DNA of 64,000 bases from Actinomyces oricola (lineage in GTDB: Bacteria; Actinomycetota; Actinomycetes; Actinomycetales; Actinomycetaceae), in contig NZ_RYFV01000010.1 in NCBI RefSeq assembly GCF_004104015.1, positions 1 through 64,000 on the forward strand, read 5' to 3'. Numbering within the stretch: the first letter of the stretch is position 1; each line of letters begins with the position of its first letter. A program made the translations under genes and the position numbers. Below are positions 8,404 to 33,838 of the stretch, piece by piece. Below the pieces are notes generated by a model. The model saw only the letters and a program-made list of their open reading frames with translations. It was not told where the DNA came from and did not search any database.

Positions 8404-8436
8404 TTGGGACGCAATCCCATCGAGAAAGGAAAAATC

Positions 8437-15966: not shown

Positions 15967-16253
15967 CACTGCCTCCCGTCCTGACGAGCAGGTGAGCACC
16001 GACGACCGGTGACATCTGCGGCGATAGAGCTCGGTCTACCTCGATCTGCAAGAGGCGTGTCCTCTCAGTGGGTGGGTCGGCGAGACGAGCGAGCTGGGTG
16101 GTCGGCAGCGGTGAGGCGGACCAGTCGAGTTGCAGCGAAGTGCAGGGCGATGACAGCGGCGGAGCGTGGCGTGGTCGTGCACCTGACAGGTGACCAGCCC
16201 GGCATCAGAACGAGGAGAACTGGGGCCGGGGTCGCCCGTCACTCGGAGTCCTC
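15967..16253. promoter_or_regulatory. Divergent region between relaxase and cytosine methyltransferase genes; possible oriT
   Basis: These 287 bp hold no gene. They must contain promoters for the two divergent genes. In MobF systems oriT usually lies next to the relaxase gene, so this is the best candidate site, but I do not see a decisive nic sequence. A short inverted repeat, CACCT-GAC-AGGTG, lies at 16180-16192. It is preceded by GTG so that it reads GTGCACCTGACAGG, which matches 13 of 14 bases of a motif at 39870. Confidence 0.4.
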
Positions 16254-17387
16254 ATGCACGATCAGGAAGACCAGCTGCCCAGACTCAAGATCGGGTCGCT
16301 GTTCAGCGGTTACGGCGGCCTAGACCTCGCCGTCGAACACGTCTTCAACGCCGAAACCGTGTGGTTCTCCGAACTCAACGAACCCGTCGCCACCGTCTTC
16401 TCGCGCCACTGGCCGGGCGTCCCGAACCTCGGCGACATCACCACCATCAACTGGCACGAGGTCGAGCCCGTGGACATCCTCATCGGAGGCTTCCCCTGCC
16501 AAGACGTATCGACCGTCGGCAAGCGTGCTGGCCTCGCACCCGGCACCCGATCCGGCCTCTGGGCGCACATGGCCGAAGCCATCGACGCACTCCAACCCGA
16601 ATGGGTCGTCATCGAGAACGTCCGCGGGCTGCTGTCCTCCCCAGCGACGCGGCCACCAGTAGAAGGAGACCGACATGTCCCACGCAACCCCGGCGACGCA
16701 ACCCCCGACGGTGCAGCCCTTCGCAAGCTGGAACCCGACCCGTGGCATCTGGGAGACAACGCAGCTCGACCTCTACGGGCTCTCGGCTCCGTTCTCGGCG
16801 ATCTGGCCGACCTGCGGCTGGATGCACGATGGATCGGTCTACCGGCTTCCCTTGTCGGCGCTCCTCACCACCGCCTCCGCATCTTTATCCTCGCCCACCG
16901 CACGCTTCCGCACACCACTCGCGACCGACTCATCACGAGGCGGCGAGACACTCGATCAGGTGCGAGCAAGACGCGGGACGATCGCGCTGTCGCACCAGAT
17001 CATCGACTTCGCTCTCCACGGACCAGCTGGCTCGCCGAACAAGAGACGCGAGTCGGAGACGCTGTGGTCGCTGATCGACGGACTGTTCAACGCTGGGGAC
17101 GCTACGCCGACGCCATCACCCGCTGGGAACACATCACGGGACGACTAGCACCCGCCCCCGCACTCCTGAACGACGCCGACGGACCCCGCCCAGCACCCGC
17201 GTTCGTCGAATGGCTCATGGGCCTGCCGACCGGATGGGTCACCGACACTGGCGAGCTGACGCCCAACCAGCAGATCACCGCACTCGGAAACGGCGTTCTC
17301 CCTATCCAAGCGGTGCGCGCGCTCGGACCCTTGCTCGTGCCTTCACGAGTCGGTTTTGCTCTTCGGAGCGGGCGCGTGCCCGAGTAG
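16254..17387 (+). CDS. C5-cytosine DNA methyltransferase
   Basis: The enzyme transfers a methyl group from S-adenosylmethionine to C5 of cytosine in DNA. The 377-residue product shows motif I GSLFSGYGGLDLA (residues 14-26), the catalytic motif IV GGFPCQDVS (Cys82), motif VI ENVRGLL (121-127), motif VIII near LVGAPHHRLRIFILAH (about residue 205) and motif X ITALGNGVLPIQAVRAL. A late segment, WGRYADAITRWEHITGRLAPAP with VEWLMGLPTGWV, is typical of actinophage and ICE enzymes. GGAGT lies before the ATG at 16254. No cognate restriction endonuclease is next to it, so it could protect the element or pair with the neighbouring operon. Its 3' end overlaps the convergent DUF3644 gene by 45 bp, and a second ORF is nested inside it. 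Confidence 0.9.
   Translation: MHDQEDQLPRLKIGSLFSGYGGLDLAVEHVFNAETVWFSELNEPVATVFSRHWPGVPNLGDITTINWHEVEPVDILIGGFPCQDVSTVGKRAGLAPGTRSGLWAHMAEAIDALQPEWVVIENVRGLLSSPATRPPVEGDRHVPRNPGDATPDGAALRKLEPDPWHLGDNAARPLRALGSVLGDLADLRLDARWIGLPASLVGAPHHRLRIFILAHRTLPHTTRDRLITRRRDTRSGASKTRDDRAVAPDHRLRSPRTSWLAEQETRVGDAVVADRRTVQRWGRYADAITRWEHITGRLAPAPALLNDADGPRPAPAFVEWLMGLPTGWVTDTGELTPNQQITALGNGVLPIQAVRALGPLLVPSRVGFALRSGRVPE
16675..17148 (+). CDS. Possible nested gene in another frame of the methyltransferase gene
   Basis: This ORF of 157 residues lies wholly inside the methyltransferase gene, one base out of frame. GAAGGAG at 16662-16668, six bases before its ATG, is a better ribosome binding site than the host gene has. 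The product starts with a Thr/Pro/Gln-rich stretch, then WNPTRGIWET, FSAIWPTCGWMHDGSVYRLP and TPLATDSSRGG. From memory this pattern also occurs in actinophage proteins encoded by or near cytosine methyltransferase genes. Part of that likeness could arise only because the methyltransferase frame is conserved, and a third frame is also open here at this G+C content. It is therefore a candidate, not a certain gene. Confidence 0.4.
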   Translation: MSHATPATQPPTVQPFASWNPTRGIWETTQLDLYGLSAPFSAIWPTCGWMHDGSVYRLPLSALLTTASASLSSPTARFRTPLATDSSRGGETLDQVRARRGTIALSHQIIDFALHGPAGSPNKRRESETLWSLIDGLFNAGDATPTPSPAGNTSRDD

Positions 17388-18407
17388 CGCCTGGTACTTT
17401 TCTGCCGTGTCAACGGCCTCGGCCATTCGCTCCACAAGCTTGGGCCGGTAGACGAACTGCTTGAAGGCTGGCGAGTAGAGGCAGTATCCGTCGGACTTGG
17501 GCAACTGCTCCTTGTCGCCGCTCTTGGCTGGCCCGATCTGCCACTCCTTGCGGATACGCGTGAAGTCGTTGACGCTGAACTTGAAGGCGATGCGCGCCTC
17601 GACTGCGGCGGCAGCCGCCTTGGGGAGCATCTCATCACCATGGATCGCCTCACGGTACTTCTCCGCGACGATGACGCTGCCTTCCTGGCCGAGAAGAGCC
17701 TGAAGCTCCTCTTCGCTGAGTTCGTCCTGCCGTACGAAGTTCAGCGCGAGGTCTGCTTCCGTCTTGGGACCCTTCATGGGAAGCAACAAGAGCCGGTAGG
17801 CGTAGCGCTCATCGCTTCGCACGGTATCCGGTAGGCGGCCCTGGAACTCAGTGATGAACGTGGAGACGGAAGTTGGCAGACCTCGGCGGAGATTGCGTTG
17901 TTCCTCGTATCTTGTCGGACTCAGCGACTGCACGAAGACCGGAAACTTCAGCTCCGAACCCAATGTCTCGTTTGTGCCGAACCTCCGGACCAGTTCTGCT
18001 TCGAAGTTGATGATGCAGGCATGGGCCTCTGCGGCTGTTGCTACCAGGACTGAGTCTTGGAAGCGGTGCTCCACGTGGTTCCGAAGCCCGACGAAGAACT
18101 CGATGTTCGCTCTGACCGGGTCGTTGTCCTTGAACTCGTGCTTCAGGCACTGGCTCAGGTCCCAGGTCTTCTTGGAGCCGTCCGGGTTCCTCCTGAAGAG
18201 GCGTCGGCCGCCCGACTCGCGGTAGAAGATTTCCGCCTTGCGGCGCATTCGGTCGGCGTGAAGCAGGTTCTGCCAGGCGAGGTGGATGTGGACGATGAAG
18301 TCGCTGAAGCTCCGCCGATCGCCGGGACGGTTGTAGAAGTCGATCGCGACGAGGGCCTGTCGCCGAGCCTCGTCGAGCGTGTGCCTCCACGCGGGTGGAC
18401 GTGCCAT
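17343..18407 (-). CDS. DUF3644-like protein with a HEPN-type motif
   Basis: The 354-residue protein opens with LDEARRQALVAIDFYNRPGDRRSFSDFIVHIHLAWQNLLHA, the helical start typical of DUF3644. It then has LRNHVEHRF, in which R109 and H114 form the R-x4-H signature of HEPN ribonucleases. The C-terminal half includes a segment (about 270-340) that may be a winged-helix-like domain (FSVNDFTRIRKEWQIG). There is no membrane segment. It is the last gene of the minus-strand operon, starting 5 bp after the Shedu-like stop. Its 3' end overlaps the convergent methyltransferase gene by 45 bp. HEPN proteins commonly act as toxins or RNases in defence; activity here is inferred from the motif only. Confidence 0.75.
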   Translation of the reverse strand: MARPPAWRHTLDEARRQALVAIDFYNRPGDRRSFSDFIVHIHLAWQNLLHADRMRRKAEIFYRESGGRRLFRRNPDGSKKTWDLSQCLKHEFKDNDPVRANIEFFVGLRNHVEHRFQDSVLVATAAEAHACIINFEAELVRRFGTNETLGSELKFPVFVQSLSPTRYEEQRNLRRGLPTSVSTFITEFQGRLPDTVRSDERYAYRLLLLPMKGPKTEADLALNFVRQDELSEEELQALLGQEGSVIVAEKYREAIHGDEMLPKAAAAAVEARIAFKFSVNDFTRIRKEWQIGPAKSGDKEQLPKSDGYCLYSPAFKQFVYRPKLVERMAEAVDTAEKYQALLGHAPAPKSKTDS

Positions 18408-18412
18408 CTCGA

Positions 18413-19801
18413 TCAGACCGCCTCGGCCTCGGGGGCCGGTGTGAGGAAGTCACGGAGGAGTCTCAGTCGCTCAAGAATCTCGTCGTAGGTCACGATGGTC
18501 ACGCTGCGGGAGTTCGCGCGATACAGCTCGAACGACTTTTGTCTTGACGGATCGCTGGCAGAGGGTGTGCGTCCGGCGACCACGAAGCAGGAGATTGCGT
18601 AGGACTCCAAGTCCCACTGACGCGAGCTCTCCTTCAGCCCGGTGAGGTTCTTCGTCAGGTTGTACGCCTGATCGAGCACCTGGGAGACCGCACCGTTGAG
18701 TTCCTTTGACGGACCGAACACACCCTGACGGTACTCACGGGGCTCCAGCAGCTGCGTGGTTGGCTTCTTGATCTCCACCAGAGCGACGTTGTTCGTGAGC
18801 GAGTTCTTGAACAAGTAGTCCGCGATCTTGTCGCCGCTTCCCGACAAGCCGCGACCGCCTACCGTCGCTCCGGAGCGCACACTGACCATCGGGGCTCCGA
18901 AGACCTGTTGCAGCGCGAAGGCGTTGTCGTCGAAAAAAGCCTGCCAGTACGGCTCGGCCTTGCCCTGTTCCAAGGCCTCTGCGTACGTCTCGATGAGGCG
19001 GTCAAGGCTGACGAGCTCGATGTCTCGCTTGAGTTGCTGAAACTTCTGTGGTGATCCCGCCGCTATTGCTGCCGACTCGGACGAAACCGCTTCGACCAAA
19101 GCATCACGTTCAACGCTACTGAGTTCCTCGATTCCGTTGGCGGCCTTCGCGATCACGCGCGAGTCCGGGTGTCGCCCAAGCGAGAAGTCTGCGTTGGCGA
19201 GACCAAGTGTCGCAGCGAGGTTGTTGTGTACGAAGACGTCCTTGACTCGACCCGCCGCACGATTTCCTCGGTCGTTGATTCGACCGATCTCGGCCCAGAT
19301 CGCAGCGAAGCGCGATAGGCCGAGGTGGAACTCTGTCCCGTCGATGGCGGCACTGTTGCCGTCGGTGAAGATGATCTCTGTGCAAGGAGTGTTGGCTTCG
19401 ATCAACCGAATCAGCCGGTTGCAATCCTTGAGCAACCCGAGGCCGTAGGCGAAGTCCTTGACGAATCCGGGCGGTAGCGTCTCAAAGATTGACTCCAAGT
19501 CGGAGCCCTCGTAGTACTCATCCAGCAACGGCGTTTCCAAGGAGAGCGTCTGTACCTGCTCGTACTTCGGACCGAGGTAGTCGTTGTGGTTTGAGAGTGT
19601 GTTGATGGGGTGAATCTTCAGGATTCGCGCCCCAGCGTCGAACTCAACGAGCTTCACACCATCAGCCAGACGCCGGTACGCCGAGGACTCTTCATGCGGT
19701 AGCTCGGTCGGAACGAAGTAGGCCTCAACCCGGCCATCCCCATTCGCGGTGCGAACGTCGAGGCGACCGATGTTCGCCTGATCATTTCCGAATCGAGCCA
19801 C
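18413..19801 (-). CDS. Shedu-like nuclease (SduA, DUF4263 domain)
   Basis: The C-terminal domain (about residues 280-440) matches the Shedu DUF4263 nuclease: WQAFFDDNAFALQQVFG, GSGDKIADYLF (D328), VALVEIKKPTTQLL (E343, K345), then YRQGVFGPSKELNGAVSQVLDQA. These are the D, ExK and downstream glutamine positions of a PD-(D/E)xK fold. Shedu proteins protect against phage by cutting DNA. The N-terminal 270 residues vary between Shedu proteins and probably sense the trigger; here I recognise no domain. The start is 8 bp from the DUF499 stop and the stop is 5 bp before the DUF3644 start. It is therefore embedded in a longer operon, whereas Shedu is usually described as a single-gene system. Confidence 0.82.
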   Translation of the reverse strand: MARFGNDQANIGRLDVRTANGDGRVEAYFVPTELPHEESSAYRRLADGVKLVEFDAGARILKIHPINTLSNHNDYLGPKYEQVQTLSLETPLLDEYYEGSDLESIFETLPPGFVKDFAYGLGLLKDCNRLIRLIEANTPCTEIIFTDGNSAAIDGTEFHLGLSRFAAIWAEIGRINDRGNRAAGRVKDVFVHNNLAATLGLANADFSLGRHPDSRVIAKAANGIEELSSVERDALVEAVSSESAAIAAGSPQKFQQLKRDIELVSLDRLIETYAEALEQGKAEPYWQAFFDDNAFALQQVFGAPMVSVRSGATVGGRGLSGSGDKIADYLFKNSLTNNVALVEIKKPTTQLLEPREYRQGVFGPSKELNGAVSQVLDQAYNLTKNLTGLKESSRQWDLESYAISCFVVAGRTPSASDPSRQKSFELYRANSRSVTIVTYDEILERLRLLRDFLTPAPEAEAV

Positions 19802-19809
19802 CGCCGACC

Positions 19810-22800
19810 TCAGCTCTTCTCGAAGCCCGAGCTCGGGTCGAACTTCAGGACGCGGGCGTTCTCGCTGATGGTGCGGACCTCTGCCTCGTCAAAGCCTTCG
19901 GGCTTGGTGGCTTGGATGTCGATGGTGATCTCCAAGCGTGCACCCGCTCCGGAGAGGCGGTCGATGACCTCACGGGTGACGTTGCCGATGTCGCGGGAGT
20001 AGCGGTCGGGGTCGATCCTGACCGAGCCGAAGAATCGCGCAAGCGCTGCTTCGAGCGCAGACTCGGCCGGAGACAGCGCGTCGCTGTCGGAAGCAGGGTC
20101 ATGGGTTCCAGTCCATGCGAAGTCCACCGGGCCGACACCCTCGGCACCGTCTTCTGTCTGCCGGGCAGCGGCTTCTCGGGCTGCTGCCCGGTCTGCGTCG
20201 AGCTGTTCCTGGGCCTTGTCGGCGTCGATGAGCAGGGTGCTGTTCGTGACCTGGATGCTGGCGTTCGGGTCGGGCGGCACGAGGAGTCCGCGGTAGCGGC
20301 CGGTGTCGGTGTCCTTGCCTGCCGCGATGCCGAAACGTTCGCTGTCTACAAGCACGGTGGTCAGCGCCTGCTGGATCGCACCGTCGAGCACTTCGCGTCG
20401 GACGAGGCGGGGTAGATAGGTGTAGCGGGTGAAGTACCCCCACAGCTCACCAACACTGATTTCTCCTGCGTCGTGCCAGAGTGCACCGAGTTCGTTGTGC
20501 AGGGTGGCGCCGAGGATCGGCGCGCCGAAGTCGGTGACGAGTTGGTCTTCACGTCCGAGCTTGGTGCCGACCCGTTCCGCGAGGGAACGGCCGCCGGAGT
20601 CGGGCACGCGGTCAGCAACGAGCTCGAAGGGCTTGGTTGGGTCGAACTGTTCGGGGTAGACGGCCCAGACGAAGGTGTCGCGGATTCGGTCTGAGACGGT
20701 CTGGTCGAGGCGTCCCACCCAGTCGTCGGTCTGCTTGCGCTGCTGTGCGGAGAGGTTGAGGCTGTCGCTGGTGGCCTGCACACGCTTCCAGCCGAGGTAG
20801 CTGCGGGTGGCGGCTTCGAGGCTTTCCAGTTCGCTCTTGTCTGCGAGCAGGAAGATCAGCGTGTTGCGGTGGATGCGCTGGCTCGCGCCCTTCCTCTCGA
20901 TAGCGTCGCGGACCCATGCGTGCGCCGCCGAGTCGGCTCCGTCCTGCTTGCGGCGGGCATGCCGCGGATGAGCGATTACCAGGCGCGTGTCCTCAAGATC
21001 GGGAATGTCCGCGGAGGACGACGGGGCGATGTGTACGCGGTCGAACACGCCGCGTGCCTTCTCTTCTCCTTGGAGGCGGCGGCTGATCTCGTTCCACACC
21101 GTCTCGACATCCTCGCGGAGTCGCTCGGCGTAGTCGTTCGCGGTCTTCGTGACCGACGGTTGGGTGTCGAACCAGTAGTGGCCCTGTTCCTCGTAGAAGT
21201 ACGTCGACCGCTGGGCGAGCAGCTCAACGGCGCTGCCGAAGTTCCCGAGCGTGTCGCCAGGGATCGCGGTGCCGAGCCAGAGGTACTGCTTGTCGAGTCC
21301 CTTGCGGCTGCTCTTGATCCGGGGGGCCGCGCCCATGAAGATCGAGCGGGCGATGCGCTGGGTGACGAACCGCTGGCCCAGGTTCGGTCGGTCGAGGTCG
21401 ATCTGCTGCGCGGTCGATCCGGGCCCGTCGATGTCAGAGTCGATGATCGGCTTCCACTGATCTTCGAGGTACTGCGTCAGGTCCGTGTTCACGGTCGTCG
21501 CATCGAGCGGAACGTTGCCGGGCAGGATCAGCGGCGAGGTGTCATTGGACGCCCACAGCTCGTGCACGATCGACGAGACGAGCTTCAGCACACCGCGGGT
21601 GCGCTGGAACCGCTCCAACGTCGACCAGTCCTCATACAGCCGGTCGAGCAGTTCGGGGTGCAGCGGGTATGAGGCGCGGATGCGCTTCTCGTAGTCGTCG
21701 TTCGGCGACGCCGCGTCGCGAGGGAACAGTGCGGTGTTGTTCCGGTACAGGTTGGCGAAGCTGCGCGCCACCGCCGAGATGGTGGTGAGTCCCTCGGCGT
21801 TTGGTGCCTGGAACAGGCGGCGGCGAACGATCTCGAACGACTCGTCCTTGCTCGATGGGCGCCACTGGTCCGCGACACGACGAATCACGTTCTGAAGACG
21901 CTCCAGCGCGAGTTGACCGTTCGCGCCACCGATCTCGATGTCACTGCCGCGGCCCTCGGTGCCGGTATCGGAGGCCGGGATCGACACCACGAGCATCACA
22001 CCCGGCACAGACCGCACGATCTCGGTCAGTGACTGGGCGAAAGTGAACTGTGTTTCGAACGACCCCGACGGGAGCTCCTTGTCGGTGACGAGCTGCCGCG
22101 CGTACGCGACCCATTCGTCGATCAGGATCAGCGACGGCGAGTACCGCACGATCAGGGTGCGAAGCGCCTCGCCAGGGTTGGTGCCGGCGCGATCGTCCTC
22201 GGCGATCAGGTCGTAGGCCTCGCGGCCACCCAACTGCCATGCCAGCTCGCCCCACAGCGTCCGGACCTCGGTGCCGTCATCCTTGATGATCGGCGAGCCG
22301 GCCTTCAGATAGGTGCCGACCAGAGCGACACGCTTGACATCAAGCGCGCCAAGGTCGGGGTTGCCGTTCGCCGCGATCAGTTCTTGAAGTTCCTGCGGGA
22401 AGTCCTTCGCAGATGTACCACTGAACAGGTGATACAGCGCGAGCATCGAGTGGGTCTTCCCGCCACCGAAGTTGGTCTGAAGGTTCACCACCGGGCTCGC
22501 CCCAGCCTCACCATTCACCCTCCGCAGCGCACGCGACAGCAGATCACGCAGACCCTCGGTGAGATAGGTGCGGGTGAAGAACTCGACAGGATCGCCATAC
22601 TCCGGGCTGGTCGCCTGCCCAGTGTGGACCAGGTGCAGATCGGCCGCGAACTCCGAAGCAGTGAACGCGCCACGAGCCACGTCATCGTGAGGCCGGATCA
22701 CCTCACGCCACGGCCGCAGCCCAGAGCCCGGATCGAGGGACACCTTGGTGCGCTTGACCTGCTTACGGGTCTGATCCTCGAACACCGTGCGCTGCAGATC

Positions 22801-23208
22801 GACGCGCAACTTTCGCACGTCCTCAGCGGAATCGACCGCGCCGACGGCGTGGAGCAGCCGCTCAATCGTGTCCAGCGCGCGGGCGGCATCATCCGAGCTG
22901 AAGGGCTCGTTGTGCGCCCACAGGTTCCGGGTCTCCCGCAGCTCGGACGCGAAGCCCTGCTGGGCGCGGGAGAGCACGTCCTTGAAGTGGTAGCCCTGCT
23001 CCGTGATGGCGCGAAGCTGCACCTGAACGTCGTGTTTCGTCATCGTGCGCAGCGGGCCGCCCCGGCGCTGGGCGTCTTCCTTCGCCCACGCGGCAGGCCA
23101 GTCAGGGGTCTTGTAGGCGCGCGTCATGACCTCATCGACCTCGTCGAGCAGCCCTTCGGAGAGCAGGTCGAACGCTTTGCCCACTCGATCTCGGTTGTTC
23201 ATCGCCAT
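19810..23208 (-). CDS. Swt1-type HEPN plus DUF499 ATPase
   Basis: The 1132-residue protein has an N-terminal helical domain with RNLWAH (R94 to H99). This is the R-x4-H signature of Swt1-family HEPN domains. The DUF499 P-loop domain follows, with NFGGGKTHSM (Walker A, K251) and LILIDEW (Walker B, D364 and E365). A long C-terminal part follows, including charged helices (AQEQLDADRAAAREAAARQ). DUF499 proteins occur with DUF1156 methyltransferases and helicases in predicted archaeal and bacterial defence clusters. The ATPase probably couples sensing to the partners' action. The start (ATG 23208 or the in-frame ATG 6 bp later) has AGGAG upstream. It lies 64 bp after the YhcG-type gene and 8 bp before the Shedu-like gene. 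Confidence 0.88.
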   Translation of the reverse strand: MAMNNRDRVGKAFDLLSEGLLDEVDEVMTRAYKTPDWPAAWAKEDAQRRGGPLRTMTKHDVQVQLRAITEQGYHFKDVLSRAQQGFASELRETRNLWAHNEPFSSDDAARALDTIERLLHAVGAVDSAEDVRKLRVDLQRTVFEDQTRKQVKRTKVSLDPGSGLRPWREVIRPHDDVARGAFTASEFAADLHLVHTGQATSPEYGDPVEFFTRTYLTEGLRDLLSRALRRVNGEAGASPVVNLQTNFGGGKTHSMLALYHLFSGTSAKDFPQELQELIAANGNPDLGALDVKRVALVGTYLKAGSPIIKDDGTEVRTLWGELAWQLGGREAYDLIAEDDRAGTNPGEALRTLIVRYSPSLILIDEWVAYARQLVTDKELPSGSFETQFTFAQSLTEIVRSVPGVMLVVSIPASDTGTEGRGSDIEIGGANGQLALERLQNVIRRVADQWRPSSKDESFEIVRRRLFQAPNAEGLTTISAVARSFANLYRNNTALFPRDAASPNDDYEKRIRASYPLHPELLDRLYEDWSTLERFQRTRGVLKLVSSIVHELWASNDTSPLILPGNVPLDATTVNTDLTQYLEDQWKPIIDSDIDGPGSTAQQIDLDRPNLGQRFVTQRIARSIFMGAAPRIKSSRKGLDKQYLWLGTAIPGDTLGNFGSAVELLAQRSTYFYEEQGHYWFDTQPSVTKTANDYAERLREDVETVWNEISRRLQGEEKARGVFDRVHIAPSSSADIPDLEDTRLVIAHPRHARRKQDGADSAAHAWVRDAIERKGASQRIHRNTLIFLLADKSELESLEAATRSYLGWKRVQATSDSLNLSAQQRKQTDDWVGRLDQTVSDRIRDTFVWAVYPEQFDPTKPFELVADRVPDSGGRSLAERVGTKLGREDQLVTDFGAPILGATLHNELGALWHDAGEISVGELWGYFTRYTYLPRLVRREVLDGAIQQALTTVLVDSERFGIAAGKDTDTGRYRGLLVPPDPNASIQVTNSTLLIDADKAQEQLDADRAAAREAAARQTEDGAEGVGPVDFAWTGTHDPASDSDALSPAESALEAALARFFGSVRIDPDRYSRDIGNVTREVIDRLSGAGARLEITIDIQATKPEGFDEAEVRTISENARVLKFDPSSGFEKS

Positions 23209-23272
23209 CGCTGTCTCCTATCACCTACTACCTACGACTGTCGTGGGCACGCCCCACAGCGGCCAATCCCTG

Positions 23273-24391
23273 CTACTCATCACCGTTGTCGTCTCCGCCT
23301 GCTGCGAGCTGTCTACGAGCGAGCCGTTCTTGGGCCTCTCGGTAGATTTCCCTGATCTTGGCCTCAAGCTCGGCCTTTGGCGGCAGTGCCGTCCAGTACT
23401 CCGCGACGACGATCCCGTCCTTGTGCATCTCCAGCAGCTCGATCTGGTCGCGGCTCGCCGCGGTACACAGGATCAGACCGATCGGTGGGTTCTCATCCGC
23501 CTGACGCTCGTGCCGATCCAGCCACTTGAGATAGAAGTTCATCTGCCCCTGGTAGCTCGGCTTGAACTTGCCGACCTTCAACTCCACGGCGATCAACCGG
23601 CGCAGCGGTCGCGAGTAGAACAGCAAGTCGAGGTAGTAGTCATCGCCGTCGAACGTCATGCGCTTCTGCCGTCCAACGAACGCCCACCCGCGCCCCACCT
23701 CTAGCAGGAAGGACTCCATGTCACGGCGGAGCGCGGCTTCGAGGTCCCGCTCCAAGAAGGTGTCGGCAAGCCCCAGCATGTCCAACAGCATCGGATCGCG
23801 GAAGGCATCGAGTGGCACCGCCGATCCCTCTGGAATCTGCGAGTCAGCGATCTCCCGACGCTCGAAGGCTTTGCGCTCGATGGCCCGGCGCAGATCGCGA
23901 ACACCGAGTCGGCGCTCGATGGTCTCCTTCACATAGAACGCTCTCGCCTCGGGACTCGACACTGGCAACAGTGTCTTGAAGTGGGTCCAGCTAACTTGTC
24001 GCCCCAGTGAGGCGACAAGTTCGGCGTCCGGGAAGGCCTGCGAGAACTGAACCATCCGGTAGAGGTTGGCCCGCTCGAAACCTCGACCGTACCGAGCGGT
24101 CAGTTGTCGCCCCAGTGAGGCGATAACTTCCTGGTCGTGCCCGGCACGGTCTTCGTGAAGCACGGCCACGTCGATCACCCGCCCGATGTACCAGTTCCGC
24201 AGTGTCAGGGTCGCGTTCACCTGCGCGGCCGCGAAGGACTGCGCTTGATCGATCAGCGCAGACACCCGCTCCACGAGATCGCCACCTTCGGCGCTGACGG
24301 ACTCCGCGATGGCACGGAACGGAGAAAGACCATCGTCAGATTGGTGCCTCACCGTGGCACCAATCTGGGCTTCGTCCGGGTTATGAGCCAT
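23273..24391 (-). CDS. YhcG-family nuclease (DUF1016, PD-(D/E)xK)
   Basis: The 372-residue protein has the DUF1016 N-terminal domain: RNWYIGRVIDV, SLGRQLTARYGRGFERANLYRM and SLGRQVSWTHFKTLLPV. The C-terminal nuclease domain has YYLDLLFYSRPLRRLIAVELKVGKFKP, giving catalytic D255, E270 and K272, followed by QMNFYLKWLD. YhcG proteins are found as accessory genes in type I restriction loci and other defence clusters. The gene starts 3 bp after the stop of the DUF1156 methyltransferase gene, so the two are certainly co-transcribed. In this operon it is a candidate for the DNA-cutting partner of the methyltransferase. Confidence 0.88.
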   Translation of the reverse strand: MAHNPDEAQIGATVRHQSDDGLSPFRAIAESVSAEGGDLVERVSALIDQAQSFAAAQVNATLTLRNWYIGRVIDVAVLHEDRAGHDQEVIASLGRQLTARYGRGFERANLYRMVQFSQAFPDAELVASLGRQVSWTHFKTLLPVSSPEARAFYVKETIERRLGVRDLRRAIERKAFERREIADSQIPEGSAVPLDAFRDPMLLDMLGLADTFLERDLEAALRRDMESFLLEVGRGWAFVGRQKRMTFDGDDYYLDLLFYSRPLRRLIAVELKVGKFKPSYQGQMNFYLKWLDRHERQADENPPIGLILCTAASRDQIELLEMHKDGIVVAEYWTALPPKAELEAKIREIYREAQERLARRQLAAGGDDNGDE

Positions 24392-24394
24392 GCC

Positions 24395-27223
24395 CTAATC
24401 CTCGTCCTCGTCGAAGTCGAACTCCTGCTGCGACGAACGCGGCGTCGCGGCGAACTTGCGTGCCTGCTCGTTCACGTCGCCCCAGGCGCTCACCAGACCG
24501 TTGAAGAGGATCGCGTCCTTCGTGTCCTTCTTCTTCTCTGCCTCGTGGAACAGCAGGAAGCCCAGCTCCTTGACCGCATCCAGGTTCACGCGCGTCTGCA
24601 CCGACGGCAGCAACTCCGCCACCTTGTCGGCACCATCCTTCGCCATCACCGCAGCCAGACGAACAGTGGCTTCCCAGACGCTGACGCGTTCGTCGGCTGC
24701 AACGTCCCACCGGTCTTCCATCTGGGACGGCGAGAGCAGGCGGGCCTTTCCTCCCTTTGCCTCAAAGATGCCGCCGCGTTCAAGAGCACCAATGGACGTG
24801 TCTGAAGAACGGGCGAGTTGGTCGGCTACCCCGGAACTCTCCTGATCCCAACCGAACTGCCGATACCACTTGACAGCGAACCGCGTATCAGGATCGAAGT
24901 CAGACTCTTGCTCTCCAAGCACTTCGTCCAGGGTGGCGTTGATAAGCAGAAGTGCGTCCCGCACGCTCATGTCGGACCCATCTGCCTCCCGCACGCGGGC
25001 ATAGCGGGAGAACACGGAGATGCCAGGGCCGATTGCTGCCTGTGCAAGATCAACCGGAGCGATGGTTCCTTGCATGAGTTTCCGCAACGCGTCGGGAAGC
25101 TCGGCCTTGAGTGTGCTGACGAATGCGCGACGGGAGATCGCTTCTGCGTTCGTGGGTCGTGGCCGACAGGCCAGCAGGATTGACGACGCCAGTGCATTGC
25201 TGCGTTGCGATCGGGGTCTATTGGCAAGTTCGCTCCGCATCGGCCAGGTCGCGGAAATCTCCCATCCTGCCTCGATGAGGCCCGTAAGCACCGTGTGCCA
25301 GCCGGTCGAAGTCGCGCCGTCTGCCTTCGCGTCCTGTTGCTTATAGGCGTAGTAGACGGTCATCGGTGCCGAAGTGTCGGCCGTCTCGCGAATCCGAGAG
25401 AATACCCCGTTGAACCCGTGGACGAAGAACTTCTCGGCACCTTCCTTTCCCCCGTGTCGATGCGGGTTAGCGACTAGCTCTTGGGACTTAGGAGCGAGCA
25501 TTGTTCCAAACGTCGACGGGAGAACATCGCCCACACTCCTGCGCAGCCAAACATAGAAGTAGTCGGCCAGATCGGCATATCCGATGTAGTCGTAGTACGG
25601 CGGATCCGTTGAGACTACAGAGCCGGTATAGTCGCGCGTCGCCGCGTCGGCTATACGCGCCTCCCCTGATCCTGAAGCAGGAAGTCGCTCAAGCGCCTTC
25701 GCGACCCACTCCAGTTGACCAAGGAAGTTACCCGAAGACGAAGAAAAAGGGTTCACCTCGACGTACGACCAGATCATCGAAATTGCCTGACGCGTAAACA
25801 AATGCGTGGCGGAGTCGCGCGAGGAATCCCACGTTGCGAACGAGTTCGAGTAGTCAGTGAAACGGCTGATGCCCAAAGCCAGATAGATTGCCACAGCGTC
25901 CGCGTACGCGACCGCCCCGTGGCCCCCAGATTCGAGAGTTGAACCCTCGTCCATGCCCCGCGCCAGCGCATCGTTCAAGACTCGTTCGCGCACCACAGCA
26001 ACGAGATCACTCAGAGTGAGGAGCGTCCTCAACTGACGATTCGTGAAGAGGTCCGACCAGTTCTGAAAGCCGTACGGTCCGATCCTGAAACCAAGAGCCT
26101 TGTCCGGCAGTGGCACAGCACAAGCTGGATCGTCGGGACGCTCCACTTGCGCCGCAGCCTCATGGGCCTCGGTGGGGCTCAGGTACAGCCTGCCTCTCTT
26201 GGCTTCCGCCACGATGGCAACGAGTGCAGCACCCATCCGGCCCGCTGACGCTTCCCTTCGAATATAAGGAAACTCGATCGCTGTCCCATCGCCGACCGAC
26301 GTGGCTCCAGTACTAGTTATGGTGCCGTCTGGGCTGGACTCATGCGGCTTTCCACTGACGACTTCATAGTGGACCGAACCGTTCTCGACCGACGCCCTTA
26401 CGAAGAACTCCGCTCCCTTCTTCTTGCTGAGCCACCATGTGTTGATGAGAGGCGTCTCAATAGGGTTCGCGGGATTGGGGTTTGCGACGGTGCGAGCCCA
26501 CTTCCAGGCCAATACAGTGTGCTGAGTACCGCCCGGAGCGGTTACCGTGGGGTACAGGTCACCCACCTGCTTGAAAGCCTCATCTCGCAGCCACTCGCCG
26601 TAGCGGCGGACGTCCTCAGCAAGGCCTTCCGCCCCGTTCCATCCCGTCATTTGATTCTTAGCTTGCGGGTTGACTGGAGACAGACCGCTAAATCTCGGCG
26701 GGATGTCAACTAGCGCCTTGTTGAGGAGGACGGCCACCGGGTTGAGGTCGGAAGCCTCGGCAGACAGACCCAACCGCTGAGCTTCCAGAGGTATCGAGCC
26801 ACCACCCGCGAACGGATCCAGGATGGTCGGTAGAACCCCGCCGTTCGAGGCCCGGATTTCCTTCCGCGCTGCGTCGAGTAGTTCTCGATCGTTCGAGTTC
26901 TCCCACGAGACGAGCTGGGACAACAGTCCGTGAAGGCGAGCGCGTTCAAGGTCTTGGTCGGCAACGGAAGGGAACAAGTCAGGCCGCGAGGACGGGTCAT
27001 CGACGAGTTGCGCGAACAGCACAGCCCGCGCTGTTGCCAGCGGCTTGCGCGACCACCAAAGGTGCAGAGTCGATGGGTGCCCATGTCGGATGGACTTTTC
27101 ACGTGCAGAAGCACCGTTGATTGTTTCGAGTGGCAGCGAGACTTCGATGAGCTTCTTCTTGGGTGCGTCGGTCACGGTACTTCTCTCGCTAGCGCTGGTC
27201 TGGTTGTCGGTGGTGTGGGTCAT
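24395..27223 (-). CDS. DUF1156 adenine-type DNA methyltransferase
   Basis: The 942-residue protein begins with the DUF1156 signature: KKKLIEVSLPLETINGASAREKSIRHGHPS and HLWWSRKPLATARAVLF. It has the SAM-binding motif LDPFAGGGSIPLEA (residues 135-148) and the catalytic motif STDPPYYDYIGYADLADYFY (DPPYYD from residue 540). DPPY is typical of N6-adenine or N4-cytosine methyltransferases. No separate specificity subunit is nearby, so target recognition is probably built in. Its ATG overlaps the helicase stop in ATGA, indicating translational coupling. It is likely to mark host and element DNA as self for the helicase and nucleases of the same operon; this is inferred from the family's neighbours elsewhere. 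Confidence 0.9.
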   Translation of the reverse strand: MTHTTDNQTSASERSTVTDAPKKKLIEVSLPLETINGASAREKSIRHGHPSTLHLWWSRKPLATARAVLFAQLVDDPSSRPDLFPSVADQDLERARLHGLLSQLVSWENSNDRELLDAARKEIRASNGGVLPTILDPFAGGGSIPLEAQRLGLSAEASDLNPVAVLLNKALVDIPPRFSGLSPVNPQAKNQMTGWNGAEGLAEDVRRYGEWLRDEAFKQVGDLYPTVTAPGGTQHTVLAWKWARTVANPNPANPIETPLINTWWLSKKKGAEFFVRASVENGSVHYEVVSGKPHESSPDGTITSTGATSVGDGTAIEFPYIRREASAGRMGAALVAIVAEAKRGRLYLSPTEAHEAAAQVERPDDPACAVPLPDKALGFRIGPYGFQNWSDLFTNRQLRTLLTLSDLVAVVRERVLNDALARGMDEGSTLESGGHGAVAYADAVAIYLALGISRFTDYSNSFATWDSSRDSATHLFTRQAISMIWSYVEVNPFSSSSGNFLGQLEWVAKALERLPASGSGEARIADAATRDYTGSVVSTDPPYYDYIGYADLADYFYVWLRRSVGDVLPSTFGTMLAPKSQELVANPHRHGGKEGAEKFFVHGFNGVFSRIRETADTSAPMTVYYAYKQQDAKADGATSTGWHTVLTGLIEAGWEISATWPMRSELANRPRSQRSNALASSILLACRPRPTNAEAISRRAFVSTLKAELPDALRKLMQGTIAPVDLAQAAIGPGISVFSRYARVREADGSDMSVRDALLLINATLDEVLGEQESDFDPDTRFAVKWYRQFGWDQESSGVADQLARSSDTSIGALERGGIFEAKGGKARLLSPSQMEDRWDVAADERVSVWEATVRLAAVMAKDGADKVAELLPSVQTRVNLDAVKELGFLLFHEAEKKKDTKDAILFNGLVSAWGDVNEQARKFAATPRSSQQEFDFDEDED

Positions 27224-30200
27224 CGCGGTGGTCCTCCGCGTTCCCAGTAGTCGCGCCAGACCTCGTTGTAGGAACGAGTGGTGGCGGATGGTTCGAGGTG
27301 GGTGAAGGCGTCGCTGACGTAGCGCAGCTGATCTTGCTCCGGGCCGCTGGTGGATACTTCGACCAGGGCTAGCCGGTGTCTGTCTCCCTGGGTCTGGGCG
27401 AAGGTGATTTCGTTGGTGGTGATCGTGAAGGTGTCGGAGCCTTCGATCCGGCCTTTGACCTCGATGTAGTGGACGAAGCCTTGGCTGTCGGTGGACTGGA
27501 TGTCGTAGCCGGGGTTGTTGCGCGGCATCTCGACCGGCTCTCGTCCGAGCGCACGTTCAGCGGCGAGCACGGCGTCGACGGCGCGGCGTTCGACTTCCTC
27601 GGTCTGCCGAGCGAAGGTCTGCGGCGCGGGGGCTTCGTCTGTGGCGAGGATGTCGCTGGGGATGACGAGTGCGGCACCACGGATCACGGCAGGTACGGCA
27701 ACAAGGTTGGTGGCCTCGTCGAGTTGTTCGAGCCGGTGGTTCAGTCGTTCGTCGAGCTGGCGTGCGCGGACGAGTGCGGTCTCGGCGCGGAGTCTGCCGA
27801 CGGTTCCTGCGCGTTCGAGTGCTTCGAGTCGGTTGTGTTCGCGGTCCCAGTGGTTGATTTCGGCCAGCAGCCGATCCTTCACCTGCGCCCGAGTTCGCGC
27901 CGTTTCGATGTCGAGTCGGGTTTTGATCTCGTCCATGCGGGGCTGGAGCCCTTCACGGTAGGCCCAGGCGCGCACGATCTTCTCGTGGTGCTGCCGCGCC
28001 CAGTCACTGCTGACGATTTCGGTGATCGTTTCTGCCTCCCCGGGTTCGGGGCGGTCGTAGTCGAGATAGGGCGGGGCGGCGGAGACGGTGACGGTGCCGT
28101 CTTGTTCGAGGAGGGGGTAGTCGAAGTGGTGGGAGACGGTATCGGCGTCGGCTGCGGTGTTCTCGATGCGCTGCTCGACGCTGAACATCAGCATTGGCGC
28201 GTTGGTCTGCTTGGTGCGGCGGTCAACGAGCACCGTGCCTTGCTTGAGGGTGGGGCCGAGGTCATCGATGGTCGCTTCGATCACGGCATGCAGTAGCGGG
28301 TGCCCGGGTGCGATGAGGGAGGCGTCGGCGAGCCCGTCGGGGTGCATGCGCGCGAGCTCGAAGGTGATGCGCTCGTACTGCTCGGCGACGGGTGCCCACC
28401 GATTGAGGCGACGCGCGGTGTCGATCACGCGGGCGGGGACGCGGGTGATCTCGTAGCGGCCCTTCTCGCGCTTGCGGATGCGTCCGCCGAGTCGTGTGAG
28501 CGCGGGGATGAAGAAGGCGGCGATGTAGCCGGGTTGGAGTCGACGTTCGCGCGCTTTCTCCATTCGTGCCCGGACCTCGTCGAGGTTGAGTGCGCTGAAC
28601 ATTTCGGGGTGGAGTGCTCGTTCGGCGAGCATCTCATCGAGTCCGTGGGAGACTCCGGCGTCGATGATGCGGTCGAGTTTGGCCTTGACTTGGGGCTGGT
28701 CGCCGTAGCGGATTGCCTCGATCAGCAGGTCGCGCAGTGAGCGTTCTTGGAAGGCGTCGGCGTCGCCGAGCACGTTGAACAGGTTGCCGTTGTAGGCGAT
28801 CGACATCTGGTCGATCTTCGCCAGCAGCCGGGTGAACACGTCGCCCTCGCGGGTGTCTCGGGCGACCATGTTCCACAGGTGGCAGACTTCGCGCTGGCCG
28901 ATGCGGTGGATGCGTCCGAAGCGCTGCTCGATGCGGTTTGGGTTCCACGGCAGGTCGTAGTTCACCATCAGGTGCGCGCGTTGAAGGTTCAGTCCTTCAC
29001 CGGCGGCGTCGGTGGCGAGCAGGACCACGGTGTCGGGGTTGTGGGTGAAGCGTTCGCGGGCGAGCTTGCGATCCTCGCGGCGGGTGCCGCCGTGGATCGT
29101 GATGACCGAGTCCGCGCGCCCGAACTGAGCGGTGATCTTGGCGTGCAGGTAGTCGAGCGTGTCGCGGTGCTCGGTGAAGATGATGATCTTGCGCGCGTCG
29201 CCGGAACCGTCGTGGGTGAGGAGCTGCTCGTCGAGGATGGTGCGGAGCTGCACCCACTTCTTGTCGTCGTCTTGCAGCCGGACGCGGCGGGCGACCTTGA
29301 TGAGGTCTTCGAGGATCGCGATCTCCGCCCGCAGCTCGGGGATCGTCTGCGCCGCGGTCGCGAGATCGACAACCTGGTCGGCTTGTTCCTCCCACTGGGC
29401 GCGTTCTTCGTCGGTGGTCTCCTCGTCGAAGTCCTCGAAGTCTTCAATCGAGAAGGCCGGGAGCGCGGCATCATCAACTGGCAGGTGGGCGATGGTCCCG
29501 GTCAGGCGGGCCGTCTCGGTGACGCGCTGCATGTCGCGCAGTTTCGTGTCGAGGCGCTGTTGGCGTCGTTCCAGTGACCGCAGGATTGCTTCGGGGCTGG
29601 ATGCCAGGCGTCGCTGGAGCACGGTGAGCGCGAAGCCGACGTTGTTGCCGCGCTTCTTGTCGCCCGCCTGAGCGATCCGCTCGGCTCGTCCCATCTCGGT
29701 GCGGACGTAGTCGGTGACCAGTTCATAGAGTTCCCGCTCGGCAGGGCTGAGCTCGTATTCGACGGTGTAGGCCTTGCGTTCGGGGAACAGTGGCTTGCCC
29801 TCGAAGGTGAGCAGGTCTTCCTTCACCATGCGGCGCATCAGGCCGTGGGTGTCGGTGCGGTGCACGCCTTGGCGGTACTGGCCCTCGAAGCGGTCGCGGT
29901 CCAGCAGCGACATGAACAGTTGGAAGTCCTCTTCCTTACCCGCGTGCGGGGTCGCGGTCATCAACAGGAAGTTGTGCGCAGTCTCGGCCAGCAGGCGTCC
30001 GAGTTTGAACCGTCTGGTCTCATCGACCTCGCCCGCCCACGACGAGTAGTGCGCCGACATGCGATGCGCTTCGTCCACGACGGCGACATCCCAGGTGACC
30101 TCGCTGAGCTGCTCGATCAGGTCTTCGCTGCGCGAGAGCTGGTCCATGCGGGCGATTAGGAACGGGTGCTCGGCGAAGACGTTGCGGCCCTGGGCGTCAT

Positions 30201-30789
30201 CGACCATCTGGCGGCTGAACACCTCGAAGCGCAGGTCGAACTTCTGCGACAGTTCTTCCCGCCACTGTTCGACCAGCCCACCGGGAGCGACGATGATCGC
30301 GCGCTCGCAGTCCGAGCGCAGGATCAGCTCCTTCAGGTACAGGCCGGCCATGATCGTCTTGCCCGCGCCGGGATCGTCCGCGAGCAGGAACCGCAGCGGG
30401 ATGCGCGGCAGCAGCTCCTCGTAGACCGCGCGAATCTGGTGCGGCAGCGGGTCAACGTCGGAGCTGTTGACCGCGACCATCGGGTCGTACAGGGCTGCGT
30501 ACTTGATGCGCAGGGCCTCGGCCGCGAGCCGGAACTCGTCCGGGTCTGCGTCGTAGGCCGGAGCAGAGTCGAAGTCGCCCGCGATCTCGAAGCGCGCCGC
30601 GTCGGCATCGGTGATTGCGCGGGCTCCACTGCGGCCGGAATCGTCTCGGTAGAAGACCTCGAACAGTCCGGCGTCGATGGGGTCGATGGCGATCAGCGTG
30701 ACGGTCTGGCCCGGCACCAGGCCTCGGAGGCGCTGGCCCGCGCGCAGGGTTGCGAGCGTCAACGTCTCGTCGGTTGTTGCTTCTGTCAC
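27220..30789 (-). CDS. SNF2-like helicase with C-terminal DUF3883 domain
   Basis: The 1189-residue protein has DDPGAGKTIMAG (GAGKT at about 141-145), VAVVDEAHRMS (DEAH 239-242), LLMTATPHAGKEEDFQLFMSL and the C-terminal helicase block LNLQRAHLMVNYDLPWNPNRIEQRFGRIHRIGQ. It is a SNF2/DISARM-like translocase. The last 100 residues form a DUF3883 domain, NPGYDIQSTDSQGFVHYIEVKG, which has PD-(D/E)xK-like spacing (D, E-x-K). The GTG at 30789 is chosen over an ATG 57 bp upstream because AAGGAGG precedes it at the right distance. It is the first large gene of the operon after a small HTH gene. It probably moves along DNA lacking the right methylation, but this is inference. Confidence 0.88.
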   Translation of the reverse strand: MTEATTDETLTLATLRAGQRLRGLVPGQTVTLIAIDPIDAGLFEVFYRDDSGRSGARAITDADAARFEIAGDFDSAPAYDADPDEFRLAAEALRIKYAALYDPMVAVNSSDVDPLPHQIRAVYEELLPRIPLRFLLADDPGAGKTIMAGLYLKELILRSDCERAIIVAPGGLVEQWREELSQKFDLRFEVFSRQMVDDAQGRNVFAEHPFLIARMDQLSRSEDLIEQLSEVTWDVAVVDEAHRMSAHYSSWAGEVDETRRFKLGRLLAETAHNFLLMTATPHAGKEEDFQLFMSLLDRDRFEGQYRQGVHRTDTHGLMRRMVKEDLLTFEGKPLFPERKAYTVEYELSPAERELYELVTDYVRTEMGRAERIAQAGDKKRGNNVGFALTVLQRRLASSPEAILRSLERRQQRLDTKLRDMQRVTETARLTGTIAHLPVDDAALPAFSIEDFEDFDEETTDEERAQWEEQADQVVDLATAAQTIPELRAEIAILEDLIKVARRVRLQDDDKKWVQLRTILDEQLLTHDGSGDARKIIIFTEHRDTLDYLHAKITAQFGRADSVITIHGGTRREDRKLARERFTHNPDTVVLLATDAAGEGLNLQRAHLMVNYDLPWNPNRIEQRFGRIHRIGQREVCHLWNMVARDTREGDVFTRLLAKIDQMSIAYNGNLFNVLGDADAFQERSLRDLLIEAIRYGDQPQVKAKLDRIIDAGVSHGLDEMLAERALHPEMFSALNLDEVRARMEKARERRLQPGYIAAFFIPALTRLGGRIRKREKGRYEITRVPARVIDTARRLNRWAPVAEQYERITFELARMHPDGLADASLIAPGHPLLHAVIEATIDDLGPTLKQGTVLVDRRTKQTNAPMLMFSVEQRIENTAADADTVSHHFDYPLLEQDGTVTVSAAPPYLDYDRPEPGEAETITEIVSSDWARQHHEKIVRAWAYREGLQPRMDEIKTRLDIETARTRAQVKDRLLAEINHWDREHNRLEALERAGTVGRLRAETALVRARQLDERLNHRLEQLDEATNLVAVPAVIRGAALVIPSDILATDEAPAPQTFARQTEEVERRAVDAVLAAERALGREPVEMPRNNPGYDIQSTDSQGFVHYIEVKGRIEGSDTFTITTNEITFAQTQGDRHRLALVEVSTSGPEQDQLRYVSDAFTHLEPSATTRSYNEVWRDYWERGGPPR

Positions 30790-30879
30790 GGGATGCCTCC
30801 TTCCGGGTTTTGGGCAGTGGATCAGGATATGGGGTGCCACCGACAAAGTGTCAGCAGCGGCTCAAGTCGAGCGGAACGA

Positions 30880-31080
30880 TCACCCTGGCGGGGATGGGTC
30901 GGAATCGGCGGCTGCGCCGCCTCGGCGTACCCAGTCGTCGATCTCGCTGGCTTGGAACTTCCAGAGGCGGCCGACCTTGTGGGCGGGCATGGCCTTCTCG
31001 GCGATCCAGGTGTAGACGGTGTCTTTGGTGACCCCGAGGTGGGCGGCGATGTCGTCTGCGGACAGCCACGGCTCAGCCAC
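30880..31080 (-). CDS. Excisionase-type HTH protein
   Basis: The 66-residue product is a single winged HTH of the MerR/excisionase kind: WLSADDIAAHLGVTKDTVYTWI, then MPAHKVGRLWKFQASEIDDWVRRG. The GTG at 31080 has GGGAGG upstream. The helicase gene begins 90 bp downstream on the same strand. Genes like this often precede restriction and DISARM-like operons as regulators; the same fold is used by excisionases. Distance from the att sites makes a regulatory job more likely than excision. Confidence 0.78.
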   Translation of the reverse strand: MAEPWLSADDIAAHLGVTKDTVYTWIAEKAMPAHKVGRLWKFQASEIDDWVRRGGAAADSDPSPPG

Positions 31081-33377: not shown

Positions 33378-33838
33378 CCGAAGACCTCCCAGTAGCGGGA
33401 CTCGGCGAAGGCGTGTCCGCGGATGCCTGCGGCGAGGCGGTCGGCGAGGGTTTCGGCGGCGATCTCGGTTTCGCAGTCGAGGTCTTGCCGTCTGAGGAGA
33501 CGGGCGACGGTGTCCGGTGGGATGTCGGGTAGCAGCATGTCCACGGCGGCGCAGTCTTCCCCGTCGCAGTGGCCGAGGATGAGGTGCGCGAGCTCGTGGA
33601 GCACGAACTGCTGGCGGTGGAGCGTCGAGTCGGTTCGCGCCAGGAGGATCACGTCGGCCTCCTCGATGGCGAACCAGAGCGCGCAGATGCCGTCGCTGGT
33701 GTCGAGGTCATCGCGTTCGTAGACCTTCAATGGTCGCCCTCGTCGGGCCTGGATAGCCTGGATGAGATCGTCGAGGGTGAAGGTCTGGCCGAGCTGGAGG
33801 TCCGCGACGGCCGCCGATACGGTCTGCTCGATATTCAC
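33374..33838 (-). CDS. ImmA/IrrE-type metalloprotease
   Basis: The 154-residue protein has the zinc motif FVLHELAHLILGH near residue 79 and a helical C-terminus with ETEIAAETLADRLA, as in ImmA proteins of ICEs and phages. In ICEBs1 the equivalent protein cleaves the repressor ImmR to switch on transfer. Here the regulator gene lies just upstream on the same strand (61 bp away), and the membrane-protein gene overlaps it downstream. It is therefore the likely anti-repressor of this element. Whether it cleaves the EspR-like protein cannot be read from the sequence. Confidence 0.82.
   Translation of the reverse strand: MNIEQTVSAAVADLQLGQTFTLDDLIQAIQARRGRPLKVYERDDLDTSDGICALWFAIEEADVILLARTDSTLHRQQFVLHELAHLILGHCDGEDCAAVDMLLPDIPPDTVARLLRRQDLDCETEIAAETLADRLAAGIRGHAFAESRYWEVFG

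Follow-up and report, generated by a model that had tools for sequence, protein, structure and literature searches.

Do seven adjacent genes of Actinomyces oricola encode one new defence machine, or a known system to which further defence genes have been added? The question is raised by a stretch of 64,000 nucleotides (contig NZ_RYFV01000010.1, positions 1 to 64,000; hereafter the window), whose minus strand carries, behind a small HTH_17 gene, genes for a helicase, a DUF1156 methyltransferase, a YhcG nuclease, a DUF499 ATPase, a Shedu nuclease and a DUF3644 protein. A sequence-only reading had proposed a new multi-component methylation-based defence system with Shedu and DUF3644 as integral members. 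The core of this operon is, however, the known Hma system, also named Type-1 BR (BREX-related, after bacteriophage exclusion), and what is found here is a known system with a new accessory set. It is probable that the locus is a restriction-modification (R-M)-like Hma operon on a TrwC-type element, to which YhcG and an interchangeable 3′ cassette of Shedu and DUF3644 have been added.

Pfam and PADLOC bore out every gene identity which the sequence-only reading had given between 17343 and 31080 (Table 1), the PADLOC names from hmaA to the DUF3644 gene being HmaA, HmaB, PDC-S02, HmaC, SduA and PDC-S19. HmaA (1306 bits) combines SNF2 and Helicase_C domains with a NOV_C nuclease domain (1.6e-19), contains the motifs GAGKT160, DEAH258 and D1115...EVK, and has RapA as its best match among solved structures. 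HmaB (1050 bits; DUF1156, 1e-27) exhibits DPFAGGG136 and DPPY540. In HmaC (876 bits) an N-terminal HEPN_Swt1 domain (3.5e-31) with R94NLWAH99 is fused to a DUF499 domain (1.4e-31) with GGGKT248-252, residues which are invariant in eight sequences. YhcG matches both DUF1016_N (1.9e-35) and YhcG_C (2.2e-45). Shedu (SduA, 510 bits; SduA_C or DUF4263, 4.8e-23) has an intact D324...EIK345 motif, and the solved SduA 8ti8 aligns to its residues 252-449 (7e-33). The DUF3644 protein (306 bits) contains the Rx4-6H motif as R109NHVEH114, of which R109, N110, E113 and H114 are invariant in six sequences, one of them at only 31% identity; its AlphaFold model, built from an alignment of six sequences, reached a mean confidence (pLDDT) of 46, too low for a fold search. 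Searches of the PDB by sequence with HmaB, HmaC, YhcG and DUF3644 yielded no match. The operon encodes three nuclease domains of the PD-(D/E)XK type (HmaA NOV_C, YhcG and Shedu), two HEPN domains with R-x4-H (HmaC and DUF3644) and one amino-methyltransferase with DPPY. The enzymatic activities which these motifs imply are predicted ones. For DUF3644, PMC3710099 gives the assignment to the HEPN class, along with the meaning of the HEPN motif.

The gaps computed from the coordinates are 33 bp between the HTH_17 gene and hmaA and then -4, 3, 64, 8 and 5 bp, so that the operon-like spacing of the last six genes (-4 to 64 bp) noted earlier holds. This spacing suggests that all seven genes are read as one transcript; a scan for sigma-70 promoters returned none against 1.3 expected. 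Relatives of the HTH_17 gene precede hmaA in several related operons, and its product is a probable regulator of the operon.

Table 1. Features of the operon, its 3′ slot and its flanks in the window.
Feature	Position	Strand	Evidence
HTH_17 (excisionase-type) small DNA-binding protein, first gene	30880..31080	-	GTG start at 31080; Pfam HTH_17 1.8e-14
hmaA: SNF2/SWI2 helicase with C-terminal NOV_C nuclease domain	27220..30846	-	Pfam, PADLOC, motifs
hmaB: DUF1156 amino-methyltransferase	24395..27223	-	Pfam, PADLOC, motifs, identity profiles
yhcG: DUF1016_N and YhcG_C PD-(D/E)XK, between hmaB and hmaC	23273..24391	-	Pfam, PDC-S02
hmaC: HEPN_Swt1 fused to DUF499 AAA+ ATPase	19810..23208	-	Pfam, PADLOC, invariant residues
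shedu (SduA) nuclease, first gene of 3′ cassette	18413..19801	-	Pfam SduA_C, PADLOC SduA
DUF3644 (PDC-S19), HEPN-family, second gene of 3′ cassette	17343..18407	-	Pfam, PADLOC
3′ exchange slot, from hmaC stop to 3′ end of the convergent C5-methyltransferase gene	17343..19809	-	blastn breakpoints, slot contents
C5-cytosine DNA methyltransferase, convergent	16254..17387	+	Pfam DNA_methylase 7.4e-31
TrwC-type relaxase, mobile-element backbone	12397..15999	-	Pfam TrwC 1.4e-86
5′ backbone: alpha/beta hydrolase, seven-transmembrane (7TM) protein, ImmA-like	31207..33838	-	tblastn

The DUF499-DUF1156-helicase core, which the sequence-only reading had recognised as known from defence-island surveys, thus matches Hma. 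Hma was defined in PMC8565338, where HmaB is called a 5-methylcytosine enzyme, and was renamed Type-1 BR in PMC12839542, where the enzyme is called an N6-methyltransferase; the core had been noted earlier (PMC7641849; PMC3710099). PMC12839542 also reports that HEPN is fused in 1370 taxa, that BREX and BR loci contain auxiliary nucleases and that Shedu is linked to BREX, and it cites an experiment on HmaA. The window operon shares with the published system the domains of HmaA, HmaB and HmaC, among them the fusions of HEPN to the DUF499 ATPase and of helicase to nuclease. However, the published core comprises three genes, whereas the window operon adds HTH_17, YhcG, Shedu and DUF3644. With BREX it has the logic of a methyltransferase and a BrxC-like ATPase in common, and PMC12839542 derives the core shared with Type-3 BREX; unlike in BREX, no PglZ family appears among the listed Pfam and PADLOC matches of the operon proteins, which for YhcG and HmaA comprise 25 PADLOC matches each.

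The full seven-gene order is not confined to A. oricola. Matches to the HmaC profile PDLC00662 occurred in 10 of 151 genomes sampled from the family, 22 of 248 from the order and 38 of 396 from the phylum, counts that include the window's own genome and weak or partial matches. A scan of genome contigs, in which the best 80 of 356 relatives were kept, gave 76 distinct loci (numbered with an L). Three loci besides the window show the complete order: L077 (genome G015), from a second genus of the Actinomycetaceae, L123 from Tessaracoccus sp. SD287 and L141 from an actinobacterial metagenome-assembled genome, from which L143 derives as well. Shedu and DUF3644 therefore do not stand beside DUF499 in one strain only, the case in which the sequence-only reading would have taken them for chance neighbours. 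As L077 is well diverged from the window (HmaA 86, HmaB 60, YhcG 71, HmaC 84, Shedu 75 and HTH 74% identical; DUF3644, there split into two overlapping frames, 79 and 87% in its pieces), the arrangement has lasted. Recent spread of one near-identical element was considered as an explanation for the recurrence and was ruled out, since L077 keeps the order at 60-87% protein identity. Relative to the window copies, the ratio of nonsynonymous to synonymous substitutions (dN/dS) is 0.02-0.08 for HmaC, 0.12-0.17 for YhcG, 0.08-0.21 for Shedu and 0.04-0.25 for DUF3644, for which one pair yielded no ratio because its synonymous sites were saturated. These low values show purifying selection, and the accessory genes have therefore been kept functional. 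As the order recurs in L077, L123 and L141 and dN/dS lies at 0.04-0.25, the gene set is more than chance.

What lies directly behind hmaC is, however, not constant. Among 41 related loci, whose HmaC proteins are 61-100% identical to that of the window, 37 have at least 1 kb behind hmaC and were counted; L116, L121, L135 and L146, where the contig ends less than 300 bp from hmaC, were dropped. With labels assigned by hand, a same-strand module of a defence family starts within 150 bp of the hmaC stop in 26 of the 37 loci and within 70 bp in 24. Shedu with DUF3644 occupies this slot in the window, L077, L123 and L141. Shedu occurs with PRAI and PRTase-CE genes in L115 and is cut by transposase genes in L114; DUF3644 accompanies a Leo-like GTPase in L119 and L145 and has an internal deletion in L134 (both broken copies, L114 and L134, were counted as occupied). 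Other slots hold Gabija-like genes (L143, L130, L140 and L117, the last scored from a GajA-like tblastn match of 82%, with no intact open reading frame (ORF) listed), OLD-like genes (L078, L138 with the gene in two ORFs, L133, L144 and L191), a ThsB TIR protein with SLATT (L118, L137), a KAP NTPase (L122, L142), an Lmu-like system (L125), HamA with a helicase (L120) or a PycTM/2TM-like protein (L136). An 855-aa protein with partial PADLOC matches to HEC-07 and NsnC and no Pfam match fills the slot of L124 (13439-16006) and is a candidate for a new defence protein. The 381-aa protein behind Shedu in L115 likewise has no Pfam match.

On the 5′ side, the nearest gene had a PADLOC match in only 5 of 32 loci: L192 (SduA), L136 (AbiLii), L117 (Cas6), L132 (CorA-like) and L134 (PDC-S01, marginal). 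This control took the nearest ORF, nine loci having no usable one upstream (that of L075 is hmaA itself), and as some short upstream ORFs may not be genes it may be biased in favour of the slot. The Cas6-like gene of L117 (1491-2444) lies directly upstream of the Hma operon. Within the operons of L134, L136, L145 and L146, hmaA and hmaB lie 0.85-1.3 kb apart, which suggests that genes can be inserted there as well.

Pairwise blastn comparisons show that the cassettes are exchanged with clean breakpoints. Window and L143 are 86% identical up to the hmaC stop, and the match resumes only at +2514/+3461 with 77% identity in the C5-methyltransferase and relaxase genes. L123 and L138 likewise differ from L143 in the slot between flanks that are 91% and 84%, and 93% and 91%, identical. 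At such breakpoints an identity of 86-93% stops at the hmaC stop and picks up 1.9-3.5 kb later. L123 and L115, which have both flanks in common, match at 92% through shedu and are then unlike until +2476/+5006. Between the window and L119 or L145 the match stops at the hmaC stop and restarts at DUF3644, shedu being the difference. Operons with other cassettes reach 99% identity in HmaC residues 1-870.

YhcG follows a different pattern. Placed on an HmaC tree (a quick build with support from the Shimodaira-Hasegawa-like approximate likelihood ratio test only), its presence in 40 loci requires 5 changes compared to 13.2 for shuffled labels, and none of 300 shuffles was as low. For slot content (27 loci, 13 types) 19 changes were needed compared to a shuffled mean of 19.8, with 98 of 300 shuffles as low; L139, where GmrSD lies 850 bp away, is included in these 27 loci without being scored as occupied. 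Slot content therefore turns over fast, though not wholly at random, while YhcG does not, and among the added genes only YhcG behaves as a lineage-stable fourth gene. Copies of YhcG in the hmaB-hmaC gap of L132 and L140 are 35-37% identical to that of the window. L140 has two different YhcG genes, one in the hmaA-hmaB gap (592-1608; 61%) and one in the hmaB-hmaC gap (4560-5384; 35%).

The cassette genes also occur outside full Hma operons. Searches for DUF3644 independent of Hma covered 248 genomes from the order, 221 from family f8 and 60 from family f6, which are partly overlapping sets and a part of the order; besides remote copies they returned five close ones (74-89% identical) in addition to that of the window, and none of the five is surrounded by a full Hma operon. 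In L210 and L094 a shedu-DUF3644 pair with the same 5-bp spacing as in the window is directly preceded by a 36-nt remnant of the hmaC end, which matches the window at 27 and L123 at 29 of 36 positions, compared to 19-23 of 36 for the best match elsewhere in L210 or L094. L210 also contains a 231-bp piece resembling the start of hmaA (66%). The two shedu genes show a dN/dS of 0.20 to each other, and the core may have been lost before or after the two loci split. In L211 (4890-15916) DUF3644 lies 44 bp behind a type III R-M-like operon and is followed by a TrwC relaxase gene, and the leading HTH gene of this operon is 88.8% identical over 187 bp of nucleotide sequence to the HTH_17 gene of the window. 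There, the core appears to have been replaced by a type III R-M-like system between related ends. The remaining copies stand divergently to type I hsdM, hsdS and hsdR (L209) and near a 44% identical Shedu on the opposite strand (L208). A Shedu query against 213 family genomes returned the window, G015 (75%) and one copy at 40% with no Hma gene detected nearby. On plasmids the nearest Shedu (57.5%) has no Hma gene in its annotated neighbourhood, and the plasmid DUF3644 with the highest identity (57%, covering 43% of the query) is split around IS21 genes; no relatives of Shedu and DUF3644 were found in viral contigs. A second, divergent Shedu (E 6.5e-22) is encoded on the window's contig outside the window (genome G000, contig C78, 80416-80967). 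Judged by these gene neighbourhoods, the Shedu-DUF3644 cargo appears portable, yet it is often found with Hma.

A second variable part of the operon lies within HmaB. The comparison comprised 465 pairs from 31 loci, which are not independent of each other. In all 41 pairs with HmaC residues 1-870 at least 93% identical (93-99%), HmaB residues 100-700 are only 48-75% identical, while HmaA (93-98%) and HmaB residues 740-942 (74-98%) are closer. A near-identical allele of the HmaB core was not found in any two loci (highest value 78% among the pairs shown), and neither was a donor for the exchange. As a site-reading helicase or ATPase would have to change alongside, it is most likely HmaB that reads the sites for both modification and restriction, and DNA specificity is probably set by its residues ~100-700.

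The proposed mechanism is that HmaB methylates host sites and determines the sequence specificity, while the AAA+ ATPase HmaC and the helicase-nuclease HmaA would work with whatever HmaB allele the operon has and degrade incoming DNA that lacks the modification. The HEPN domain of HmaC and the YhcG nuclease would serve as built-in auxiliary effectors. Shedu as DNA nuclease and DUF3644 as HEPN RNase would form a self-standing second defence unit, swappable for Gabija, OLD, TIR-SLATT and others. As the cassette is docked 8 bp behind hmaC, its expression from the HTH-controlled operon is proposed. A broader idea, which we put forward tentatively, is that the Hma operon is a modular immunity chassis, with an HTH-led promoter, a specificity changed by swapping HmaB residues ~100-700, and the hmaC stop as a docking point where TrwC elements let species exchange unrelated immune systems.

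Three other explanations have to be weighed against that of a known core with interchangeable cargo. If YhcG, Shedu and DUF3644 were obligate subunits of one integrated seven-component methylation-based machine, the tight gaps (33 bp and -4 to 64 bp), the recurrence of all seven genes in four loci (whose HmaC is 84-100% identical to that of the window) and the purifying selection on shedu, DUF3644, yhcG and hmaC would all be expected. Yet near-identical cores bear other cassettes, the histories of YhcG and the cassette differ, and DUF3644 copies of 74-86% identity are found close to type I R-M genes, close to a divergent Shedu or following a type III R-M-like operon, all of which makes such a machine very improbable. 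The proposal of a new multi-component methylation-based system, made from the sequence alone, is not supported: the core is that of Hma, related operons fill the slot with unrelated defence systems, and the five close DUF3644 copies, two of them with hmaC remnants, lie outside full Hma operons. The opposite extreme, plain clustering in a defence island of independent systems piled on a mobile element with no shared regulation, is hardly more probable. It would fit the other defence-like genes of the element backbone (C5-methyltransferase, ResIII helicase) and the PADLOC matches in 5 of 32 nearest 5′ genes; however, it does not account for the asymmetry of defence genes between the 3′ and 5′ sides, nor for the 24 of 26 occupied slots in which the module is on the same strand and starts within 70 bp of the hmaC stop.

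An intermediate possibility is that Shedu and DUF3644 are backup effectors triggered by phage inhibition of the Hma core, the slot being a fail-safe site whose cassettes change yet depend on an Hma trigger. This would agree with an operon that contains two HEPN and three PD-(D/E)XK motifs, and with the large excess of defence genes behind hmaC over those on the 5′ side; PMC12839542 argues that BREX and BR systems have auxiliary and backup nucleases. The cassettes, however, include Gabija, Hachiman-like and Lmu-like systems that act alone elsewhere, and in L210 and L094 Shedu has outlasted the core. Dependence of the cassettes on an Hma trigger therefore appears unlikely, if less so than the two explanations above.

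Several observations weigh against the explanation by a known core with interchangeable cargo. No recognised defence module was found in 11 of the 37 slots: L132 has a CstA gene, the first ORF of L075, L139 and L192 is without PADLOC match, and in the other seven no ORF of 100 aa on the same strand lies within 200 bp. Slot content is also less random on the HmaC tree when coarser labels and empty slots are used (36 loci, 12 groups; 20 changes compared to 23.7, 2 of 200 shuffles as low), as is Shedu alone (4 changes compared to 5.7, 16 of 500 as low). Divergence at fourfold sites dips at the hmaC end in one clade, the Microbacterium group (0.21 compared to 0.35-0.41), and not in the window's own clade (0.32 compared to 0.32-0.43); as one clade alone has this dip, homologous recombination at the hmaC end is only half supported. 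With respect to autonomy, the DUF3644 gene of L094 is broken by a transposase gene on a contig of only 8.3 kb, and the hmaC remnants imply that the L210 and L094 pairs descend from Hma operons, which makes them weak proof of lasting independence. Both close Shedu copies in the 213 family genomes (window and G015) sit in Hma operons. A screen of 43 remoter loci (L147-L189) used the proteins of the window as its only queries and would miss divergent accessory genes, many of the loci also being truncated at contig ends; it found one DUF3644 (L156), one YhcG (L162) and no Shedu. The DUF3644 of L156 (13413-14399; Candidatus Wirthbacteria) lies 91 bp behind HmaC at 31% identity. This distant copy and the Hma-bound close Shedu copies hint at a preference for Hma. 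Finally, HmaC residues 900-1080 vary too (53-96% in pairs where measurable), and HmaC may contribute to specificity.

One flank of the operon carries genes for XRE, ImmA-like, 7TM and hydrolase proteins, the other the convergent C5-methyltransferase gene and the TrwC relaxase gene. Parts of this backbone recur in L077, L115, L121, L123, L125, L138, L141, L142 and L143, which is why the region most likely lies on a mobile element. The C5-methyltransferase gene forms the right border of the slot in several relatives and has counterparts in L115, L123, L138, L141 and L143; the TrwC relaxase has them in L077, L123, L125, L142 and L143, and the 5′ backbone genes are wholly or partly common to L115, L121, L123 and L125 by tblastn. 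On the plus strand of the window (7246-11925) an XRE/ImmA-IrrE protein gene is followed by one for a 1072-aa ResIII-type helicase, a pair which may form a further defence unit of this element.

That Hma operons can harbour embedded defence genes is already on record: PMC12988326, PMC11411939, PMC10855318 and PMC12255303 refer, after Payne and colleagues, to Hma-embedded candidates (HEC) or to Septu in Hma. The window operon fits this location, with yhcG inside and shedu and DUF3644 behind hmaC, and the models PDC-S02 and PDC-S19 (Payne 2024) match its YhcG and DUF3644. The citing passages, through which HEC is considered here, do not, however, mention a constant point of exchange at the hmaC stop, the breakpoints of such an exchange or Shedu paired with DUF3644. 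Type I R-M operons with embedded genes (TgvAB, PMC11411939; DarTG2 with its regulator RptR, PMC12255303) are comparable in that an R-M-like core carries foreign defence genes and, for DarTG2, in that a small regulator gene comes first. There, the foreign genes are inserted between core genes, whereas the cargo of the window lies behind the last core gene and has many alternatives. The Shedu of the window resembles described SduA in its SduA_C domain and D...EIK motif, the solved SduA matching the C-terminal 200 residues, but its N-terminal region has no match to solved SduA and it is paired with DUF3644 5 bp downstream. Neither an account of the full gene set nor a paper naming both Shedu and DUF3644 was found in the literature searched. 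The sharp 3′ slot, the hmaC remnant and the allele pattern of HmaB appear to be new detail.

Operons of this kind offer natural experiments for a widespread and little-studied defence system. As it is chiefly the HmaB core and the 3′ cassette that set near-identical operons apart, simple swaps can test what the methyltransferase and the cargo each do, and the slot behind hmaC is a place to seek new defence genes.

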